Positions 2,658 through 13,993 of a DNA stretch of 49,024 bases are shown in pieces. The notes beneath the pieces are model-generated. The model worked only from the letters and a program-made list of their open reading frames with translations. It ran no database searches and was not told the DNA's origin. A program made the translations under genes and the position numbers. Origin of the DNA: an uncultured SAR86 cluster bacterium (GTDB lineage Bacteria; Pseudomonadota; Gammaproteobacteria; Magnimaribacterales; D2472). Positions within the stretch are counted from its first letter, which is position 1. Each line of letters starts with the position of its first letter. The stretch lies in contig CABYNW010000007.1 of assembly GCA_902520495.1 (NCBI GenBank), forward strand, positions 1-49,024, in the 5' to 3' direction.

Positions 2658-3311
2658 TTATTCCATATTTTTCAATAACTGCAAGGCCAATGACGATGCG
2701 GTATTGTTTGGGTATTCTCTTACAACAAAATTATACTTATCTTTAGCTTTACCAATCTCATTGGATTTTAAATAAATGTCCCCAATTTTTTTATGAGCCA
2801 ATGGAATTCTATAATGATTAGGATAAGAGCTTATTAGTTCCATAAAAAAATCTTTTGATTTTGCTAAATCATTATTTATAAAAGAAATTTCTCCTAACCA
2901 GAAATATGATAGGGGTTTTTTTTCTTCATCAAGAAAACTTGCAACAAAAAAATTGAATAGCATAAAGGCTTTATCATAATCTTGTGATTCTAAGGCTTTA
3001 ATTGCAGCACTGTATACCTGATCTTTACTATTTGGATCTTCAATTCCTTTAAATCTAATATCAGTATCTAAAGCAAGATTTGTTATATCTGCAGAATCTT
3101 CTTCAGAAGAATCCAAAGATTCTTCAATTAATTTATCAATTAAATAATTTTGAGATTCTATCTTATTTCTTAATTCGGCTATTTCAGATTCTAATTCTTG
3201 AATTTTAAGAAAGAGAATATCTGTTTTGGCAGTCTCATTCTCATCGGCCTTAAGGAGACTTGGAAAAAAAGCTATTAAGACAAAAAATATAAAAAAAAAT
3301 CTGATATCCAT
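2658..3311 (-). CDS. cpoB: Cell division coordinator CpoB (YbgF), Tol-Pal associated
   Basis: A 217-residue exported protein. A signal peptide covers roughly residues 1-22 (hydrophobic F-F-I-F-F-V-L-I-A-F-F), followed by a predicted trimeric coiled coil at about 30-65 and a C-terminal TPR domain from about 100, with the Y-x-x-A-x-x-x-x-x-x-x-D-Y-D-K-A pattern and repeats through the end. In E. coli CpoB is periplasmic, binds TolA and links PBP1B/LpoB activity to outer-membrane constriction. The gene is three bases downstream of pal and precedes tRNA-Lys, the normal terminal position of the tol-pal operon. It is slightly shorter than the E. coli protein (about 263). Confidence 0.9.
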   Translation of the reverse strand: MDIRFFFIFFVLIAFFPSLLKADENETAKTDILFLKIQELESEIAELRNKIESQNYLIDKLIEESLDSSEEDSADITNLALDTDIRFKGIEDPNSKDQVYSAAIKALESQDYDKAFMLFNFFVASFLDEEKKPLSYFWLGEISFINNDLAKSKDFFMELISSYPNHYRIPLAHKKIGDIYLKSNEIGKAKDKYNFVVREYPNNTASSLALQLLKNME

Positions 3312-3314
3312 TAA

Positions 3315-3809
3315 TTAGTTAATTTCTACTCTTCTGTTCTTTGCAAAACTCATCTCATCTTGACCATATGCCACTGGTTTTTCTTCTCCATAACTTTTTA
3401 CTGTAATTCTATTTTTATTTATTCCATTTAAAACAAAATAATCACTAACCGCTTCCGCCCTTCTTTGACCTAATGCTAAATTATATTCTCTAGTACCTCG
3501 CTCATCTGCATGACCAGCAAGAGTAATTTTTATTGATTGGTTATCCTTTAATGCATTTACTGCGCTTTTTAGTGTTTGTATAGACTTACTCGTTAAAGAA
3601 GATTTATCAAATTCAAAATAAATAGTTGCATTTGCAAATACTGCCATACTATCAAAACTTATGTTCTCAGTGGTTTGAGATTGAGATGATGCTTTAACAG
3701 TTTTAATATCTTCAGAATATACGTTTTCTTCAGTTACATTCATGCTTGAACATGATGTCAAAAAAATTATAACTATAAAAAAATTTAATTTACTTCTAAA
3801 AATTGTCAT
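3315..3809 (-). CDS. pal: Peptidoglycan-associated lipoprotein Pal
   Basis: A 164-residue lipoprotein. The signal peptide ends in a lipobox L-T-S-C at about residues 17-20. After a short Ser/Thr-rich linker comes an OmpA-like domain from about residue 58: Y-F-E-F-D-K-S-S-L near its start, then the peptidoglycan-binding segment G-H-A-D-E-R-G-T-R-E-Y-N and L-G-Q-R-R-A. These carry the Asp and Arg residues that bind meso-diaminopimelate in the family. It anchors the outer membrane to peptidoglycan and is pulled to division sites by TolB and TolQRA. It lies 15 bases downstream of tolB. Confidence 0.97.
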   Translation of the reverse strand: MTIFRSKLNFFIVIIFLTSCSSMNVTEENVYSEDIKTVKASSQSQTTENISFDSMAVFANATIYFEFDKSSLTSKSIQTLKSAVNALKDNQSIKITLAGHADERGTREYNLALGQRRAEAVSDYFVLNGINKNRITVKSYGEEKPVAYGQDEMSFAKNRRVEIN

Positions 3810-3824
3810 ATTTTCTCCATTTAA

Positions 3825-5081
3825 TTATCTTAAAAAACCTGACCATGCTGGTTCTCTTACAGATCCTTCTTTAGCAGGTAGTTTAAATTTTGCCCCGCTC
3901 AAAGTAACTCCTGAAAGCAATCCCATGCCTCCTTCTTTTATTGAATAAACTATAACATTTCCATTGGGCGAAATGCTAGGAGATTCATCCATTTGAGACT
4001 CAGTAAGTGGCCTTATAAAATTCTCATCAAAATACTTAAGTGCAATTTGAAAATTTGTATCTGCTCTATGAACAAAAACTATACCTTCATTATTTGGAAG
4101 ATATGAACCCTTCGCATTGTAGTTTCCATCAAAAGTAATTCTTTTTGGTTTTGCATTAGATTTTCTTAAATTAATTTCGTAAAGTTGTGGCGATCCTGAT
4201 CTACCAGATGTAAACATAATCTTTGAACCTTTTGTTGACCATGACGATTCAGTATCAATAGCATAATGATTGGTAAGCCTTGTTAAATTCTTATTTATTA
4301 AATTTAAAATATAAATTTCTGCATTTCCGTCTTGGTACATTGTTAAAGATAAAAATTTTCCATCTGGGGACCATGCAGGCGAGCTTATCTGAGAAGAATT
4401 TTCTATAACAAGCTCTCTATTGCCAGAAGCTATATCTTGAATAAACACTTTTGCCATACCTGTTTCAAAAGAAACGTAGGCTACTTTTTTAGAATCAGGA
4501 GACCAAGATGGTGAAATAATTGGTTCTGAACTTTCTAATAATACTTGCTCATTCTTACCATCAGCATCTGCGACCACAAGTCTATATTCTTTATTTTGTG
4601 TTACGTATAAGATTTTTGTAGATGCAATTCCCTTGATACCAGTTATTTCCTCATAAATACCATCACTTATGTAATGGGCTAATTGTCTATTCTTGTTTGG
4701 GATACCAAAAACAGTTGAAGATCTTACCTTTGAGCCCTTTTTTATATCAAAAACCTGATATTCAGCTTTAATATTAGAATAGTCATTGGCAATATTCCCA
4801 ATAATTAAATAATCTATATTTAATATCTTAAAATCATTGAAAATAATTTCACTCTCATTATTTGGAATTGATAACAAATCATCATTATCTAAGATAGTAA
4901 ACTCTCCAGTTCTTGTTAAATTATTTTTTATAATCTGATCAACATTTGTGGTAATTTCATATTCTCCATCAAATTTTATTACTGCGGCCCTGAATGGGTC
5001 CTCAGTTCCCTGAGTTATCTCTAAAACAAGTTCTGATAAAATAAAATTTGAAAAAAATATCATTAAAAGTATTTTTTTCAT
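3825..5081 (-). CDS. tolB: Tol-Pal system beta-propeller protein TolB
   Basis: A 418-residue periplasmic protein. An N-terminal signal segment (residues 1 to about 16) is followed by the alpha/beta N-domain to about 155. A six-bladed propeller follows, with repeated S-P-x-W-S-P-D-(S/G)-K motifs, for example near residues 190 and 235, and a final E-P-A-W-S. In the family the propeller binds Pal, and the N-terminal TolA box competes with this binding. The ATG overlaps the tolA stop by four bases, indicating translational coupling. Length is close to the usual 430. Confidence 0.96.
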   Translation of the reverse strand: MKKILLMIFFSNFILSELVLEITQGTEDPFRAAVIKFDGEYEITTNVDQIIKNNLTRTGEFTILDNDDLLSIPNNESEIIFNDFKILNIDYLIIGNIANDYSNIKAEYQVFDIKKGSKVRSSTVFGIPNKNRQLAHYISDGIYEEITGIKGIASTKILYVTQNKEYRLVVADADGKNEQVLLESSEPIISPSWSPDSKKVAYVSFETGMAKVFIQDIASGNRELVIENSSQISSPAWSPDGKFLSLTMYQDGNAEIYILNLINKNLTRLTNHYAIDTESSWSTKGSKIMFTSGRSGSPQLYEINLRKSNAKPKRITFDGNYNAKGSYLPNNEGIVFVHRADTNFQIALKYFDENFIRPLTESQMDESPSISPNGNVIVYSIKEGGMGLLSGVTLSGAKFKLPAKEGSVREPAWSGFLR

Positions 5082-5704
5082 GATGGATTAAAGGTTATTA
5101 CAATATTTTTAAAATTTGATGAATAAATATTAAAAGGGATTCTATTAAAGAAACTAAATGTTTCTGCCCTCTGAACAGCTTTCAGAGCAGAATTATCAAA
5201 TCTAATATTCCCACTACTTTTAATTAGATTAGCATCTATAACTCTTCCATTTTTATTTATTGTAAGTCTTAAATCACATATGAGCCCATCCTGAATATTA
5301 ATTGGTTTTCGCCAAGCTGACTGAATGGTTTGAATAATTAACGAACTATAGATCTCTACCTGACTTTGTTCAGATTCTAAAGACATTAAATCGTCTTCTT
5401 TTAAAAGGTCTTCAAAACTAACAGAACTTATAAGGGAATCAAATGAAATTGATTTATCAATTATATTGTTTTGTATCATTGGCTCAGAAGGTTGTGTTTC
5501 TTGAATCTGATTTTTCTGATCTTTAGTATTTGAAGTATTTTGTTTAATTTCTTGTCCAAAAACTAAATTAACATTTATTGGCTTACTTAATACTGACCTT
5601 TGTTGAGATTCATAATAAAAAAAACCAAGTAGATATAAAATAATCATTCCATGAATTACAAACGATACAAAAGAGGCTTCTAGGTATACTTTACTTATTC
5701 TCAT
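5078..5704 (-). CDS. tolA: TolA, shortened
   Basis: A 208-residue inner-membrane protein, about half the E. coli length (421). The N-terminal anchor at residues 9-29 contains a Ser/His pattern (F-V-S-F-V-I-H-G) like the SHLS motif that contacts TolQR. The periplasmic linker, about residues 45-110, is polar and Gln/Asn-rich and lacks the long Ala/Lys-rich helix of E. coli TolA. The C-terminal domain, about 115-208, is a TonB/TolA-type fold (A-W-R-K-P, L-T-I-N-K-N-G-R-V, S-S-G-N-x-x-F-D, A-L-K-A-V). It spans the periplasm to engage TolB, Pal and CpoB. It overlaps tolR by 14 bases. Confidence 0.9.
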   Translation of the reverse strand: MRISKVYLEASFVSFVIHGMIILYLLGFFYYESQQRSVLSKPINVNLVFGQEIKQNTSNTKDQKNQIQETQPSEPMIQNNIIDKSISFDSLISSVSFEDLLKEDDLMSLESEQSQVEIYSSLIIQTIQSAWRKPINIQDGLICDLRLTINKNGRVIDANLIKSSGNIRFDNSALKAVQRAETFSFFNRIPFNIYSSNFKNIVITFNPS

Positions 5705-6116
5705 AACCTGACGTTACTATCCCAATTTTAGTAATACCTATGCTTTGAACTGATGCCATAGCCTTTGCAACAGAGTCAAATGAGACATCTTTATCACTTT
5801 GAAAAACAACCTCAATTTCAGGATTAGCATCAAATATAACTTTAGATTTTCTTTTTAATTCATTAAGGTCAATAGATAAGGATTCTTCACCAATATTAAT
5901 AAAATATTCGCCGTTTTGATTTATTGATATTACTAGTGGTTCATTTTGAACGCTCATTTTGGTCGTATCTGTTTTTGGCAGGTTTACCTCAATCCCCTGA
6001 ATCAAAAGTGGGGACAAGACCATAAAAATAATTAGTAAAACTAACATTACATCTATATAAGGAACTACATTTATCTCAGCCTTAAGATTTTTTTTCTTAG
6101 CTAATCTATATATCAT
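5691..6116 (-). CDS. tolR: TolR, ExbD/TolR family proton channel subunit
   Basis: A 141-residue protein with a cytoplasmic N-terminus (K-K-K-N-L-K-A-E-I-N-V-V-P-Y-I-D) and a single transmembrane helix starting at D-V-M-L-V-L-L-I-I-F-M-V. The Asp at the head of this helix is the conserved protonatable residue of ExbD/TolR. A periplasmic domain follows, with G-I-E-V-N-L-P and V-x-x-A-M-A-S-V-Q. With TolQ it forms the proton-motive-force-driven motor that energises TolA. The ORF overlaps tolQ by one base and tolA by 14. Confidence 0.96.
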   Translation of the reverse strand: MIYRLAKKKNLKAEINVVPYIDVMLVLLIIFMVLSPLLIQGIEVNLPKTDTTKMSVQNEPLVISINQNGEYFINIGEESLSIDLNELKRKSKVIFDANPEIEVVFQSDKDVSFDSVAKAMASVQSIGITKIGIVTSGYENK

Positions 6117-6784
6117 TATTTTTTAATAGATTGTTTATAAAAAATGCTGGCTAATTCCTCAGCAAATATTAATGTACTTTGGCTTATAGTTTCAGATTCG
6201 GAAGTAAATTTATTAAACGCAACAACAGCTGGTATGGCTGCGAATAAACCCATACCAGTAGCTATTAACGCCTCAGATATGCCTGGAGCAACTGCATTAA
6301 TTGTTGCCTGTGTCGCATCCGATAAACCTTGAAATGATGTCATAATCCCCCAAACTGTTCCTAGCAAACCCACATAAGGACTCACAGAACCAACATTTGC
6401 TAAAAATGGTAGGTGCTTGTTCATTTCTTCTTCATCTGAAGCAATTGATACTCTCATTGATCTATTAATACTCTCAAGATCTAATTCATTAATATTTTGA
6501 TCAGAATTTATGCTGTTATATTCATCAAATGAATTCTTAAATAAACTCATAGAGCCATATATTGAATCATCTGTAGAAACTTCCTTATATAAAGCATCTA
6601 AATCCTTCCCGCTCCAAAACTTTTTAAGAAAGCTATCATTAAGATTTTTTATTTTTCTAAAAAAATTATATCTTTCTACAATTACTATCCAAGATAAGAT
6701 GGAAGCAATAAATAGAAGTAGCATAACTATCTTCACAACAATGCCTGCTTCTAAAAAAAGATTTAAAACTGAAATATCATCCAT
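6116..6784 (-). CDS. tolQ: TolQ, MotA/TolQ/ExbB family proton channel subunit
   Basis: A 222-residue protein with three membrane helices, at about 15-38, 125-148 and 160-185. The MotA/TolQ/ExbB signature is clear: L-P-F-L-A-N-V-G-S-V-S-P-Y-V-G-L-L-G-T-V-W-G-I-M, then G-I-S-E-A-L-I-A-T-G-M-G-L-F-A-A-I-P-A-V. It is the stator partner of TolR. The ATG is preceded by an AGGA Shine-Dalgarno element in the 9-base gap after ybgC. Length matches the family (about 230). Confidence 0.97.
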   Translation of the reverse strand: MDDISVLNLFLEAGIVVKIVMLLLFIASILSWIVIVERYNFFRKIKNLNDSFLKKFWSGKDLDALYKEVSTDDSIYGSMSLFKNSFDEYNSINSDQNINELDLESINRSMRVSIASDEEEMNKHLPFLANVGSVSPYVGLLGTVWGIMTSFQGLSDATQATINAVAPGISEALIATGMGLFAAIPAVVAFNKFTSESETISQSTLIFAEELASIFYKQSIKK

Positions 6785-6793
6785 AATTTATTC

Positions 6794-7201
6794 CTATTCA
6801 AAAATTAATAATAAATCATCTGGGAACTTTTGTGGTTTTTTTGTCTCAAGATTTATAAGACAAATATCAATAATGCCCTTTATGTACTTTTTATTATTTT
6901 CATCAACAATTTCTTGATTAAATACCATCCTCGCGTTAGATGACCTTTCAACTGATGATTTGACAATTAAATTTTGTCCAAGTTCAGCAGCAGAAATATA
7001 CTCCAAATTAATCTTTTTTATAACAAATGCTAAATTGGTATCCCTTAATCTTTTATGAGATATATTGTTTTGAGAAAGGAATTCTGATCTTGCTCTTTCA
7101 AAAAATTTTAAATAGTTTGAATGATATACAACACCTTGAAAATCAGTATCTTCAATAAAAATTTTGAGTTTTAAATCACTACACTTGATAATTTTGTTCA
7201 T
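6794..7201 (-). CDS. ybgC: YbgC-family acyl-CoA thioesterase, Tol-Pal associated
   Basis: A 135-residue single hotdog domain. The signature (I-E-D-T-D-F-Q-G-V-V-Y-H-S-N-Y-L-K-F-F-E-R-A-R) contains the catalytic Asp of the 4-hydroxybenzoyl-CoA thioesterase class. Family members hydrolyse short or medium acyl-CoA or acyl-ACP in the cytoplasm and are often the first gene of the tol-pal operon, as here. The start at 7201 lies 23 bases inside the upstream nuclease gene; a few residues before the I-E-D-T-D motif fit the family, so this start is preferred. Confidence 0.93.
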   Translation of the reverse strand: MNKIIKCSDLKLKIFIEDTDFQGVVYHSNYLKFFERARSEFLSQNNISHKRLRDTNLAFVIKKINLEYISAAELGQNLIVKSSVERSSNARMVFNQEIVDENNKKYIKGIIDICLINLETKKPQKFPDDLLLIFE

Positions 7202-7604
7202 GCAATTCTATATCTTCTTGGAAAAGTTCTAAAATTATTTGTATAAAATCAGGCCATAGTAAATCTACAGTAACAAGATTATTTTTAATTTCTTTATTAA
7301 TAGAATTTGCAAGCACGCGAACCTTAATCGGCCTATTATTGAATTTATATACTAGAGCAGGCATTAAATTTTCAGCTTTTGACGATAAAAGTACTTGCTC
7401 CCACCAATCAGGTCTTGGCTCTGCTCCTGATCCATATGCCTTGCATTCAATACACCATCTTCCAAGCATAAGATCCGGTAACTCTTTTGTTCTTGTTTGT
7501 TCTAAAATTCTTTTTACTGGATTTTTTAAATTTAAATCTTCTATAAGTGCATTTGCAATCTGTCTTTCAAATGCAGCTCCTTTATTTCTTGAATTGATAG
7601 ACAT
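7179..7604 (-). CDS. PD-(D/E)xK nuclease, Holliday-junction-resolvase-like, at the ruvCAB position
   Basis: A 141-residue protein with a clear PD-(D/E)xK core: Glu13 in K-G-A-A-F-E-R, Asp44 in E-L-P-D-L-M-L, and Glu53/Lys55 in C-I-E-C-K-A-Y. An aromatic D-W-W-E-Q segment (about 68-72) and P-A-L-V-Y-K-F-N-N-R-P-I-K-V-R follow. This pattern matches small phage and prophage proteins annotated as putative Holliday junction resolvases, and is unrelated in fold to RuvC (RNase H fold). In the Pseudomonas-type order yebC is followed by ruvC, ruvA, ruvB and then ybgC; here this single gene fills the gap, three bases after yebC and overlapping ybgC by 23. Resolvase activity is an inference; another structure-specific nuclease is possible. 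Confidence 0.75.
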   Translation of the reverse strand: MSINSRNKGAAFERQIANALIEDLNLKNPVKRILEQTRTKELPDLMLGRWCIECKAYGSGAEPRPDWWEQVLLSSKAENLMPALVYKFNNRPIKVRVLANSINKEIKNNLVTVDLLWPDFIQIILELFQEDIELHEQNYQV

Positions 7605-7606
7605 TA

Positions 7607-8344
7607 TTAATCTTCTGAATCCGAAACATTATCAAAGTCAGCATTTGTATGAACTTCTTGAACATCATCTAGATCATTCATAAATTCCATAATATTAAGA
7701 ATCTTCTCTTGACTGTCAGTATCAATATACACAGTAGCTTCAGCTCGAAGTGTTAACTGGGCGTTGATGTATTCAATATCATTTTCCTTAAATTTTTCTA
7801 TGACATTGCTTAAGTCATTTGGTTCTGTTGTAACTTCAAAAAAATCATTCTCCACAAAATAGTCGTTAGCTCCAGATTCCATTACTAAATCAATAAGCCT
7901 ATCTTCTGAAATATCTTTAGAAACATGAATTGATCCAAGCTTTTCAAATAAATATGCCACAGAACCATCAGTTCCTAAATTACCTCCATACTTAGAGAAA
8001 CCATGCCTTATGTCTGAGACTGTTCTATTTCGATTATCTGTCATAGTCTCAACAAGAATAGCAACTCCACCTGGACCATATCCTTCAAATATTATTTCTT
8101 CTAATGCTCCTGTTTCTCCAGTACCAGAACCCTTTTCAATTGCTCGTTTAATAGTATCTTTTGGCATATTTGCTGAATTAGCTTTTTCCAAAGCTAATCT
8201 CAGTCTCGGATTATCATTTGGATCTGGTCCATCTTTTGCAGCAACAGTAATTTCTCTAATTACTTTGGTCCAAACCTTACCCCTAGAGGCATCTTGTCTA
8301 GCTTTTCTATGTTTTATGTTAGCCCACTTTGAATGACCTGCCAT
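7607..8344 (-). CDS. yebC: YebC/PmpR family protein
   Basis: A 245-residue protein beginning M-A-G-H-S-K-W-A-N-I-K-H-R-K, the family hallmark, with G-P-D-P-x-x-N-P-R-L-R-L-A-L-E-K-A and E-G-Y-G-P-G-G-V-A-I in the first half and the two-domain alpha/beta body after it. YebC-type proteins were annotated as transcriptional regulators; work on some members shows a role in easing ribosome stalling at proline stretches. Length matches the family. It sits three bases after aspS, as is common in gammaproteobacteria. Confidence 0.96.
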   Translation of the reverse strand: MAGHSKWANIKHRKARQDASRGKVWTKVIREITVAAKDGPDPNDNPRLRLALEKANSANMPKDTIKRAIEKGSGTGETGALEEIIFEGYGPGGVAILVETMTDNRNRTVSDIRHGFSKYGGNLGTDGSVAYLFEKLGSIHVSKDISEDRLIDLVMESGANDYFVENDFFEVTTEPNDLSNVIEKFKENDIEYINAQLTLRAEATVYIDTDSQEKILNIMEFMNDLDDVQEVHTNADFDNVSDSED

Positions 8345-8347
8345 AAA

Positions 8348-10114
8348 TTATTCTTCCTTGTGAGTGCTAATAATTTTTAATTCATCAAGTTGATCTTTTT
8401 CAACTTTACTTGGTGCATCTGTAAGCAAACAGGCAGCACTCTGTGTTTTAGGGAAAGCAATTACGTCTCTTATATTAGTCGTATCAGTTACTAGCATAAC
8501 TATCCTATCAAGACCAAATGCTATTCCTCCATGAGGAGGACAACCAGATGAAAGAGCTTTTAATAAGAATCCAAATTTACTTTCGGCATCTTCTTTTGAA
8601 ATATTAAGAACATTAAAAATAATTTTTTGCATTGCATTGTCATATATTCTTAAGGAGCCTCCTCCTATTTCATATCCATTTAAAACAACATCATATGCAT
8701 GAGCAATTGAATCCTTGGGATTATCTTCTAAATCTTTAGTTGAACATTTTGGAAGTGTAAATGGATGATGGAGCGGTGTTAAATTGCCTTCTTTATTGGT
8801 TTCAAACATTGGAAAATCTACAATCCAACATGGCGCCCATTTGGTCAAATATAAATCTAGGTCCTCTCCAAGTTTTTTAATTAAACTACTCATTGATAAA
8901 TTTACAACTGATTCATTGCCAGCTCCAAAGAAAATTAAATCGTCAGTTTTGATTTCTAAAGATTTAATTATGTTTGCTACCGTTTCTGGTTTTAAAAATT
9001 TTAGTATTGGTGATTGAATGCCATTCTCTAAATCGCTCGCATCATTTATCTTTATATAAGCCAAACCTTTTGCGCCAAGCTTTGAGACAAATTTTGTATA
9101 GTCATCAATTTGTCCTCTAGATAATGAATTACCGTTAGGTACTTTTAAAGCAACTACTCTTGATCCTTTTTTTTGTGCTGGTTCAGAAAAAACCTTAAAT
9201 TCTTCATCTTTAACTATTTCAGATATATCAACCAATTTAAGAGGTATTCTTAAATCAGGTTTATCACATCCATAATCTCGCATAGCATCATGCCAGTTAA
9301 TTACTTCAAATTTTTCTAATTTGTCCCCACAGAATTCTTTAATGATATCTTTAATCATCATTTCACTAATGCTCATAATTTCATCTTGATCAAGAAAAGA
9401 TGCTTCTATATCTATCTGAGTGAACTCTGGCTGTCTGTCAGCTCTTAAATCTTCATCCCTAAAACATCTTGCTATCTGATAGTACTTATCTAGGCCTCCA
9501 ATCATTAAAAGCTGTTTAAAAAGTTGTGGAGATTGGGGCAAGGCATAGAAGCTTCCAGGCTGAACTCTGCTTGGTAAAATATAATCCCTAGCTCCCTCTG
9601 GAGTCGCCTTTGTTAATATAGGTGTTTCGATTTCATGAAAATCATTTTTATCTAAATAATTTCTTATTAAGGAAGTAATTTTTGATCTAGTTATAATTCT
9701 TTCATTCATCTCAGGCCTTCTAAGATCTAAAACTCTATTTTTTAACCTAACGTCTTCATTTACTTCTTGATATTCATCAATTGGAAATACTGGCGTGCTC
9801 GCTTTACTAAGAATAATCAGATCTTTGACCTCAATTTCTATTTCTCCTGTATGCATATTTTTATTAATTGTCCCCTCTAGCCTTTTACGAACATCACCAT
9901 TAATCTGAACAACATATTCATTTCGTATTGATTCAGCTAATTTAAAAGACTTTTCATTATCAGGATTAACTACGGCTTGGCATATACCCTTTATGTCTCT
10001 TACATCCAGAAAAATTACACCACCATGATCTCTTCTTCTATGAATCCAACCACAGATAGTTACTTCTTCTTTAAGATTTGAGGATGTTATTTCACCGCAG
10101 TAATGAGATTTCAT
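8348..10114 (-). CDS. aspS: Aspartate--tRNA ligase AspRS
   Basis: A 588-residue class II synthetase of bacterial type (E. coli 590). An OB-fold anticodon-binding domain (G-W-I-H-R-R-R-D-H-G-G-V-I-F-L-D) is followed by the catalytic domain with motif 2 F-R-D-E-D-L-R-A-D-R-Q-P-E-F-T-Q, a bacterial insertion (GAD) domain around residues 290-400, and motif 3 G-I-A-F-G-L-D-R-I-V-M-L. It attaches aspartate to tRNA-Asp in the cytoplasm. It lies 13 bases after the fmdB-like gene and leads into yebC and the tol run. Confidence 0.98.
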   Translation of the reverse strand: MKSHYCGEITSSNLKEEVTICGWIHRRRDHGGVIFLDVRDIKGICQAVVNPDNEKSFKLAESIRNEYVVQINGDVRKRLEGTINKNMHTGEIEIEVKDLIILSKASTPVFPIDEYQEVNEDVRLKNRVLDLRRPEMNERIITRSKITSLIRNYLDKNDFHEIETPILTKATPEGARDYILPSRVQPGSFYALPQSPQLFKQLLMIGGLDKYYQIARCFRDEDLRADRQPEFTQIDIEASFLDQDEIMSISEMMIKDIIKEFCGDKLEKFEVINWHDAMRDYGCDKPDLRIPLKLVDISEIVKDEEFKVFSEPAQKKGSRVVALKVPNGNSLSRGQIDDYTKFVSKLGAKGLAYIKINDASDLENGIQSPILKFLKPETVANIIKSLEIKTDDLIFFGAGNESVVNLSMSSLIKKLGEDLDLYLTKWAPCWIVDFPMFETNKEGNLTPLHHPFTLPKCSTKDLEDNPKDSIAHAYDVVLNGYEIGGGSLRIYDNAMQKIIFNVLNISKEDAESKFGFLLKALSSGCPPHGGIAFGLDRIVMLVTDTTNIRDVIAFPKTQSAACLLTDAPSKVEKDQLDELKIISTHKEE

Positions 10115-10449: not shown

Positions 10450-11730
10450 ATGTTATTTTCAAAGCTACTAATACCAACCTTAAAAGATGCTCCACAAGAA
10501 GCTGAAATTATTAGTCACAAATTAATGCTTCGTGCAGGAATGATTCGTAAAGTAGCTTCTGGTATATATACATGGCTACCTTTGGGTTTAAAGGTTCTTA
10601 AAAAAATAGAAAATATCGTTCGGGAAGAAATGAATGCGTCTGGAGCACAAGAAGTTTTCATGCCCATGGTACAACCAAAAGAATTATGGGATGAGACTAA
10701 AAGATGGGAAAAAATGGGTCCAGAATTATTAAGAATTCAAGATAGACATGAGCGAGATTTTTGTCTTGGCCCTACTCATGAAGAAGTTATAACAGACATA
10801 ATTAGAGATAATGTAAAAAGTTATAAAGAGCTTCCACTGAATATTTATCAAATTCAAACTAAATTTAGAGATGAGGTAAGGCCTAGATATGGAATTATGA
10901 GAGGAAGAGAATTTCTTATGAAAGATTCCTATAGCTTCAATATTGACGAAGAATCTCTTCAAGAGACTTACCTGCTAATGAGAGATGCTTATAAAAATAT
11001 ATTAGAACGAATTGGACTGGAGTATAAAATTTCTGCTGCTGATTCAGGAGCAATTGGTGGAGATAGTTCTGAAGAATTTCATGTACTAGCAGATAATGGA
11101 GAAGATACTATTGCAGTTAGCGACTCATCTGAGTTTGCAATAAATACTGAACTCCTTTTAAAGGACGGGGAAGACATAAACTCACTTGAAGGAAAACCAT
11201 CTCCAGATGGAAATGGAACAATACAAATTAAAAAGGGTATTGAAGTTGGGCACATTTTTAAACTTGGGAAACTTTATGCTGAATCAATGAAAGCCAATGT
11301 CTTGAATGCTAAAGGTGAAGCTACAACATTACATATGGGTTGTTATGGTATTGGAGTATCAAGGCTAGTTGCAGCAGCTATAGAACAAAATTTTGATGAA
11401 AAAGGGATTATTTGGCCTCATACCATAGCCCCATTTGATATTAATATTATTGCAATAGGTTTTGATAAAGATAAAGAAATTACATCTGCATCAACAAAAT
11501 TACACGAAGAACTAACTAATATGGGTTATGACGTTCTTCTTGATGATAGAAAAGACGGTTATGGTGCAAAAATGAAGGATTCGGAACTTATAGGTATTCC
11601 ACTAAACATTATTATTGGTAAAAAATTTCTTGAAAACCAAGAGATTGAACTTAAAGGAAGAGATGGTCAGACCTCATCTAATTCAATTTCAGATATAAAA
11701 ACAATACTAGATTTTTTCAAAGACAGCTAA
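10450..11730 (+). CDS. proS: Proline--tRNA ligase, form lacking the INS editing domain
   Basis: A 426-residue class II synthetase, well short of E. coli ProRS (572). Motif 2 (F-R-D-E-V-R-P-R-Y-G-I-M-R-G-R-E-F) and motif 3 region (M-G-C-Y-G-I-G-V-S-R-L-V-A-A-A-I-E-Q) are intact, followed by the anticodon-binding domain. Between F-H-V-L-A-D-N-G-E-D (about 213) and P-D-G-N-G-T (about 257) only some 40 residues remain, where the E. coli enzyme carries the roughly 180-residue INS domain that deacylates Ala-tRNA-Pro. The flanking sequence is otherwise of the E. coli type. Charging should be intact; cis-editing should be absent. Confidence 0.95.
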   Translation: MLFSKLLIPTLKDAPQEAEIISHKLMLRAGMIRKVASGIYTWLPLGLKVLKKIENIVREEMNASGAQEVFMPMVQPKELWDETKRWEKMGPELLRIQDRHERDFCLGPTHEEVITDIIRDNVKSYKELPLNIYQIQTKFRDEVRPRYGIMRGREFLMKDSYSFNIDEESLQETYLLMRDAYKNILERIGLEYKISAADSGAIGGDSSEEFHVLADNGEDTIAVSDSSEFAINTELLLKDGEDINSLEGKPSPDGNGTIQIKKGIEVGHIFKLGKLYAESMKANVLNAKGEATTLHMGCYGIGVSRLVAAAIEQNFDEKGIIWPHTIAPFDINIIAIGFDKDKEITSASTKLHEELTNMGYDVLLDDRKDGYGAKMKDSELIGIPLNIIIGKKFLENQEIELKGRDGQTSSNSISDIKTILDFFKDS

Positions 11731-12964: not shown

Positions 12965-13993
12965 TTATTTTGATTTACTTGAAAAATATGAAGATCTTAT
13001 TTCCTTGAGCAGCTTATCTCTAATTTTTACATTTTCTTTTAAAAATAAACTTGCCTTTGGTAGTCCTTGTCCAATAGATTCTCCATCTATTTTATAAAAT
13101 GCCCCTGACTTATCAACTAGTCCAAGTTTATTGGCATATTCAAGTATTTCACCTTCTTGATTAATTCCTAAGCCATACATTATTTGAAATTCAGCTTGTT
13201 TAAAGGGAGGAGATACTTTGTTCTTAACAACTTTAATTCTAGTCTCATTGCCTACAACTTCATCCCCGACTTTCACCTGGCCTGTTCTTCTAATATCTAA
13301 TCTTACTGAGGAGTAAAACTTGAGGGCATTACCTCCAGAAGTTGTCTCAGGGCTTCCAAACATAACTCCAATCTTCATTCTAATCTGATTAATGAAAACT
13401 ACTGTTGCTCCTGATCTTTGAATATTACCTGTGATCTTTCTTAAAGCTTGAGACATTAGTCTAGCTTGAAGCCCAACATGATGATCTCCCATTTCTCCAT
13501 TTATTTCTGCTCTTGGAACTAAGGCAGCTACTGAGTCTATAATTACCAAATCAACATTTTTTGATTTTACAAGCATGTCAGCAACTTCAAGAGCTTGTTC
13601 ACCAGAACTTGGTTGAGAAAGTATTAAATCATCAACATTAACTCCAAGTTTTTCGGCATATTGCGGATCGAGGGCATGCTCAGCATCTATAAAAGCACAT
13701 GTACCACCTTCTTTTTGACATTGCGCTATAATTTGAAGTGTTAGGGTTGTCTTACCAGATGATTCAGGTCCATATATTTCTGTAACTCTTCCCTTAGGAA
13801 TTCCGCCTATTCCTAAAGCAATATCTATTCCTATAGAACCGGTTGAGATTGATGGGATATCAACTTTCTCTTTGTCACCCATTCTCATAACAGTTGTACC
13901 GCCCCCGGACTCTTTAACAAAATGAGTATTTATATCCTCTAGAGTATCCTTTAAAGACTTACCATCATTATTAACAGATTTTGATTTTGGCAT
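12965..13993 (-). CDS. recA: Recombinase RecA
   Basis: A 342-residue RecA (E. coli 353). Walker A is [10 protein letters not shown] at about residue 70, Walker B is [12 protein letters not shown], and the L2 region [19 protein letters not shown] is intact. The acidic C-terminal tail of E. coli RecA is reduced to a basic end (S-S-K-S-K). RecA forms filaments on single-stranded DNA, drives strand exchange and stimulates LexA cleavage. A ribosome-binding site AAGGAG lies nine bases before the ATG and a LexA box directly before that. recX is not downstream. Confidence 0.99.

Follow-up and report, generated by a model that had tools for sequence, protein, structure and literature searches.

A phage-type PD-(D/E)xK nuclease in the position of ruvC-ruvA-ruvB in SAR86 bacteria: a probable cellular Holliday junction resolvase

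RuvAB is nearly universal in bacteria containing RecA, and RadA/Sms is also very widespread in bacteria. In E. coli and most Proteobacteria, RuvAB is accompanied by the resolvase RuvC, which has an RNase-H-like fold. The replacement of RuvC by another resolvase is already known from the Firmicutes, where the PD-(D/E)xK enzyme RecU stands in for RuvC throughout the group (PMC1193525). It occurs together with RuvAB, and its gene is usually located elsewhere. In a survey of 117 species, only two RecA-positive bacteria were found to be devoid of RuvAB, and both contained RecG (PMC1193525). For RusA, encoded by a silent gene of a lambdoid prophage in E. coli, it was shown that it restores the UV resistance of a delta-ruvABC strain (PMC2265524), but that it replaces RuvABC efficiently only in the presence of RecG (PMC5055574). 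In archaea, Hjc enzymes like those of A. fulgidus (2wcw) and P. furiosus (1gef) consist of a small, single PD-(D/E)xK domain, and Hjc_15-6 has been identified as an active resolvase from a phage (PMC8805305). In the literature searched, no paper was found which links SAR86 with ruvC or with Holliday junctions.

The window analysed here is a stretch of 49,024 nucleotides, contig 7 of a 1.09-Mb SAR86 assembly which is 85 percent complete. On its minus strand, the genes are organized in the order aspS, yebC, nuclease, ybgC, tolQ, tolR, tolA, tolB, pal and cpoB. The upstream part of this conserved block contains aspS (8348..10114), assigned by its ORF and by synteny, and yebC (7607..8344; NCBIfam PRK00110, E=5.8e-98), which in other Gammaproteobacteria lies to the left of ruvC. 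The right neighbour of ruvB in these bacteria is ybgC, located at 6794..7201 in the window (TIGR00051 over cut-off; TIGR02799, E=7.1e-36). Downstream, the genes which we take to be tolQ-tolR-tolA-tolB-pal-cpoB from their sequences and gene order (2658..6784; ORFs and SAR86 synteny) complete the block, with tolQ (6116..6784) between ybgC and tolR. The nuclease ORF begins with an ATG and extends from 7604 to 7179, coding for 141 amino acids. It is separated from yebC by a gap of 2 bp and overlaps with ybgC by 23 bp, so that no space is left at the locus for ruvC, ruvA or ruvB. A sequence-only reading of this DNA had placed the nuclease exactly in the ruv gap and coupled to both neighbours, which is confirmed by these distances.

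The same reading had assumed that ruvCAB normally lie between yebC and ybgC. This order is explicit in a control locus (L285), yebC-ruvC-ruvA-ruvB-ybgC-tolQ, in which equivalog models identified each of the ruv genes, and yebC and ybgC/tolQ flank ruvC in most of 20 RuvC loci from other gammaproteobacterial families. All SAR86 loci examined, from four families, have the organization fmdB-aspS-yebC-nuclease-(ybgC)-tolQRAB; a genome of family f4 (G191) contains yebC-nuclease-tolQ. The nuclease thus occupies the slot of RuvC and would fulfil the same cellular task, with a PD-(D/E)xK fold, without homology to RuvC and without a RuvAB partner.

The protein encoded at 7179..7604 (minus strand) belongs to the family PDDEXK_15 (PF24608; E=1.5e-9, 38.4 bits compared to a gathering cut-off of 27), as do homologues like the f4 copy (33.6 bits) and a copy from a viral contig, L083 (34 bits). 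Residues 1-97 match phrog_244, named 'RusA-like Holliday junction resolvase' (E=1.9e-13). Four residues are predicted to be catalytic, namely Glu13 (codon 7566..7568, motif KGAxFER in helix 1), Asp44 (7473..7475, motif PDL, where strand 45-47 begins), Glu53 (7446..7448, motif ECK in strand 50-57) and Lys55 (7440..7442, the same motif), all encoded on the minus strand. They are unvaried in 30 SAR86 homologues and also in a 48-row alignment of SAR86 and viral sequences; the intact site described before is real. In the literature, no biochemical activity was found for any member of PDDEXK_15/PF24608.

Membership in a characterized resolvase family was not identified for the protein. A search of NCBIfam gave no match; the RuvC profiles PF02075 and TIGR00228 did not match, with 214.7 bits obtained for the RuvC of the control locus. 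Despite the PHROG name, no RusA profile in Pfam matched up to E=10, nor did archaeal Hjc profiles in Pfam or NCBIfam up to the same value, nor RecU in either collection. PDB chain sequences were searched with the protein and with the 48-row profile, again without a match. An AlphaFold2 model based on 48 sequences (pLDDT 86.8, pTM 0.84), in which a helix of residues 6-24 carries Glu13, was compared to the PDB by Foldseek. Here, ranks 1 to 12 were all archaeal Hjc, the best with E=5e-4, TM-scores of 0.53/0.59 and a moderate rmsd; TM-scores of the Hjc matches amount to only 0.4-0.6. Annotated Holliday junction resolvases were also present among matches in a viral structure library. The resemblance to phage-type resolvases, noticed before from the motifs, is borne out by the mainly viral family and by the Hjc-like fold. 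The model supports the view that the protein may work like Hjc; that it is an Hjc is not supported, since it belongs to none of the Hjc, RusA, RecU or RuvC families at the sequence level.

The proposed catalytic residues of phage Hjc_15-6, Glu10/Asp40/Glu53/Lys55, correspond to Glu13/Asp44/Glu53/Lys55 of the SAR86 protein in their order and spacing (PMC8805305). Differences to Hjc are found in motif I, which is G-x4-E in Hjc and G-x3-E in the SAR86 protein, and in the gene itself, which is carried by a bacterial chromosome at the place of ruv. With phage PDDEXK_15/phrog_244 proteins, the nuclease shares profile matches over most of its length and the motifs KGAxFER, D, ECK and WW-Q. While these phage copies are mobile and 35-57 percent identical, the SAR86 copy is a core gene passed on vertically in place of ruvCAB.

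We consider it probable that the nuclease serves SAR86 as its housekeeping Holliday junction resolvase, having replaced ruvCAB and been inherited vertically. A phage-type PD-(D/E)xK nuclease would have displaced the ruvC-ruvA-ruvB segment between yebC and ybgC in the order's ancestor and would then have been passed on vertically across SAR86, in which it presumably became essential. By analogy to Hjc, the nuclease might bind as a dimer to the four-way junction that results from strand exchange by RecA; Mg2+ would be held by Glu13, Asp44 and Glu53, Lys55 would contact the phosphate, and the two subunits would nick opposing strands. It would work without the RuvAB motor, like the prophage resolvase RusA in E. 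coli, which is likewise a phage enzyme able to stand in for RuvABC, although it belongs to a different fold family.

It is rather unlikely that the nuclease is a structure-selective enzyme with another main job, for example at stalled forks or flaps or in the nicking of foreign DNA. Junctions would then be removed otherwise, by dissolution through RecQ and topoisomerase III or by an undescribed resolvase, and the gene would have come to lie in the slot by coincidence when the operon was remodelled. The PD-(D/E)xK fold is shared by many types of nucleases, which do many things; moreover, the likeness to Hjc exists at the level of the fold, and the name of phrog_244 is an annotation, not an experiment. 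However, in each of the four families the nuclease exactly fills the place of ruvCAB, RuvC is completely absent from the same genomes, the top fold match is a resolvase, and viral copies are located in recombination modules.

For the order, 203 SAR86 genomes from 22 genera were surveyed, 40 of them at least 90 percent complete. The RuvC profile matched none of the 203, including none of the 40, and the same search matched 8 of 14 control genomes. RuvB was not found over the cut-off in any of 61 family genomes tested, with a best score of 29 bits compared to a cut-off of 299. RuvB_N matches in Pfam of about 30 bits, present in nearly all SAR86 genomes, were rejected as RuvB; since the equivalog model gave at most 29 bits against 299, they are assigned to other AAA+ ATPases. 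RuvA was identified in one genome of the 203 (G149), on a contig of 3.25 kb which carries neither RuvB nor RuvC. This candidate was also rejected as a SAR86 protein: it stands alone next to a gene for an RND pump, the contamination of the bin amounts to 3 percent, and the contig is probably a contaminant, although its GC content of 0.376 compared to 0.34-0.36 does not decide its origin. The three genes noted as missing at the locus are thus missing in the whole order, and intact ruvCAB was looked for elsewhere in the genome and not found.

The nuclease, in contrast, was identified in 181 of the 203 genomes, in 38 of the 40 good ones and in all 22 genera, and wherever it was checked in SAR86 genomes, it is located at the yebC-ybgC/tolQ site. 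Its absence from the remaining genomes is in line with incomplete assemblies. One copy (G044:C1:637199-637588) contains a single TAG stop inside the frame, either a sequencing error or a sign of a decaying gene. In an even draw of 274 gammaproteobacterial genomes, three of them SAR86, RuvC was found in 260; the 14 genomes without it include the three from SAR86, so that outside SAR86 RuvC is present in 260 of 271. The nuclease profile matched the three SAR86 genomes and, weakly, three others which also have RuvC. Since the nuclease was not found in the other 11 genomes without RuvC, the exchange is specific for SAR86 in this sample. Among the non-SAR86 genomes without RuvC and without the nuclease, eight (G205, G206, G225, G240, G256, G274, G295 and G331) are 90-99 percent complete.

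Most SAR86 genomes are incomplete, including that of the window with its 85 percent, and RuvC and RuvAB might accordingly persist in unassembled parts or in too diverged a form, with the nuclease as an additional enzyme. This is very improbable, since RuvC is absent from all 203 genomes and thereby also from the 40 with a completeness of 90 percent or more, the same models detect RuvC in 260 of the 274 genomes of the class, the best RuvB score lies far below its cut-off, and the native locus offers no room. Judged from these sequence data, the exchange is an ancient, order-wide non-orthologous replacement.

The family PDDEXK_15/phrog_244 is mostly viral, with at least 560 loci of nuclease relatives in viral contigs. 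More distant viral copies adjoin genes for DNA polymerase, exonuclease, RecE-like exonuclease and primase-helicase. The closest copies, in L083 (57 percent identical) and in L084-L093 (53 percent), are located beside holin, endolysin and tail genes. These tailed-phage contigs carry their resolvases outside a replication module and are candidates for SAR86 phages which acquired one of host type. A second copy of the nuclease, 38 percent identical, was identified in the SAR86 single-cell genome G095 in an apparent prophage. On this 72.7-kb contig (G095:C4; L054, L322 and L323), bacterial genes lie on the left, followed by the apparent integrated prophage up to the contig end, with the order RecE-like exonuclease, resolvase copy, primase-helicase, terminase, portal and major head protein. 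In a 96-row tree of the nuclease, the L083 and L084-L093 groups cluster with SAR86, and the remaining viral diversity lies outside. Because internal support in this tree is low and its root is arbitrary, an origin of the nuclease by transfer from phage to SAR86 is likely, but no more than that; for L083, a transfer from SAR86 to phage is possible.

Within the block, the nuclease gene is the most conserved. Compared to the window sequence, it has a median identity of 88.7 percent and a median dN/dS of 0.037; the values are 82.5 percent and 0.074 for aspS, 79 percent and 0.09 for yebC, and 58.5 percent and 0.27 for ybgC. The ratios are approximate, since many dS values are near saturation. Purifying selection on the nuclease equals that on tolR. 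The matches to PF24608 and phrog_244, the occurrence in 181 genomes and this strong selection show that the frame is not a chance ORF; it is a core gene. That a selfish element or prophage recently left it as a passenger between yebC and ybgC, as might be suspected from its mostly viral homologues and the 38 percent identical prophage copy, is highly improbable for a single orthologue at a single site in 22 genera, under purifying selection as strong as for tolR and with no further phage gene at the site.

The window contains an intact recA (12965..13993, minus strand; TIGR02012, E=1.2e-148, 494.7 bits over a cut-off of 325.3), which implies that the lineage still performs strand exchange. For branch migration, the sequence-only reading had named RecG as a possible replacement. 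RecG was identified in most genomes of families f2, f3 and f4 and of genera g2, g5, g6, g7 and g10 (about 126 of 135), but in none of 64 genomes of the window's genus (g1) and of g3, g4, g8 and g9. Where RecG is missing, the best matches are about 1e-105, the level of Mfd, compared to 1e-176 to 1e-209 where it is present. The TIGR00643 matches of about 1e-105 were rejected as RecG, as they cover the helicase part only, in frames of about 1000 amino acids, as expected for Mfd. RadA was absent from 121 of 121 SAR86 genomes by the equivalog model, which matched control genomes. Here, TIGR00416 matches were rejected, being confined to a Lon-like domain in 800-amino-acid frames or to the RecA core; RecA of the window itself gives such a match. 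Thus, the part of the earlier proposal which stands is the order-wide loss of ruvCAB with a viral-family, Hjc-like nuclease in their slot, while the takeover by RecG does not hold in the window's genus and four others.

With RuvAB, RecG and RadA not found, the RecA-positive lineage of the window lacks all three branch-migration enzymes tested, and would have to rely on RecA-driven or spontaneous migration or on another enzyme. Junctions could still be moved by RecG in the majority of SAR86 genera. In the five genera without RecG, the nuclease might cut them at the point reached by RecA, after they have migrated spontaneously, or with the help of another helicase; ComM, RecQ, RarA or another enzyme could serve as alternative motors. 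It is conceivable, though we propose it only tentatively from the gene content, that these five genera, as free-living bacteria with RecA, perform homologous recombination by means of one structure-selective nuclease of phage type, without any motor dedicated to branch migration. The RusA precedent fits the RecG-positive SAR86, but not the RecG-less genera, since RusA is efficient only with RecG. Compared to RecU, RuvAB was lost as well and the enzyme sits in the ruv slot; unusual is the joint absence of RuvAB and RadA and, in the window's lineage, of RecG. This order of marine bacteria, which are very abundant, is devoid as a whole of RuvABC and RadA, a large part of it also of RecG, and a phage-type enzyme appears to have been installed in situ as a core gene. 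SAR86 may hence be regarded as a natural experiment on the need for branch-migration motors in recombination.

In the nuclease tree, g2 and g6 are interspersed among the RecG-less genera, for which reason one to three losses of recG may have occurred. At the site itself, a clean excision was observed: in G049, recG is located at 1216133-1218190, and its two neighbours are 54 bp apart in G053; in the same-genus genome G061, the genes flanking recG likewise lie together without it.

Two further genes of the window were noted. On the plus strand, 10450-11730 codes for a prolyl-tRNA synthetase of the bacterial family II type with only 426 amino acids, in which the models match two stretches with the middle absent and Pfam finds no editing domain. 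Adjoining the tol-pal block, the minus-strand frame 2533-1307, with no NCBIfam match and an MFS match below threshold, codes for a membrane protein of 408 amino acids.
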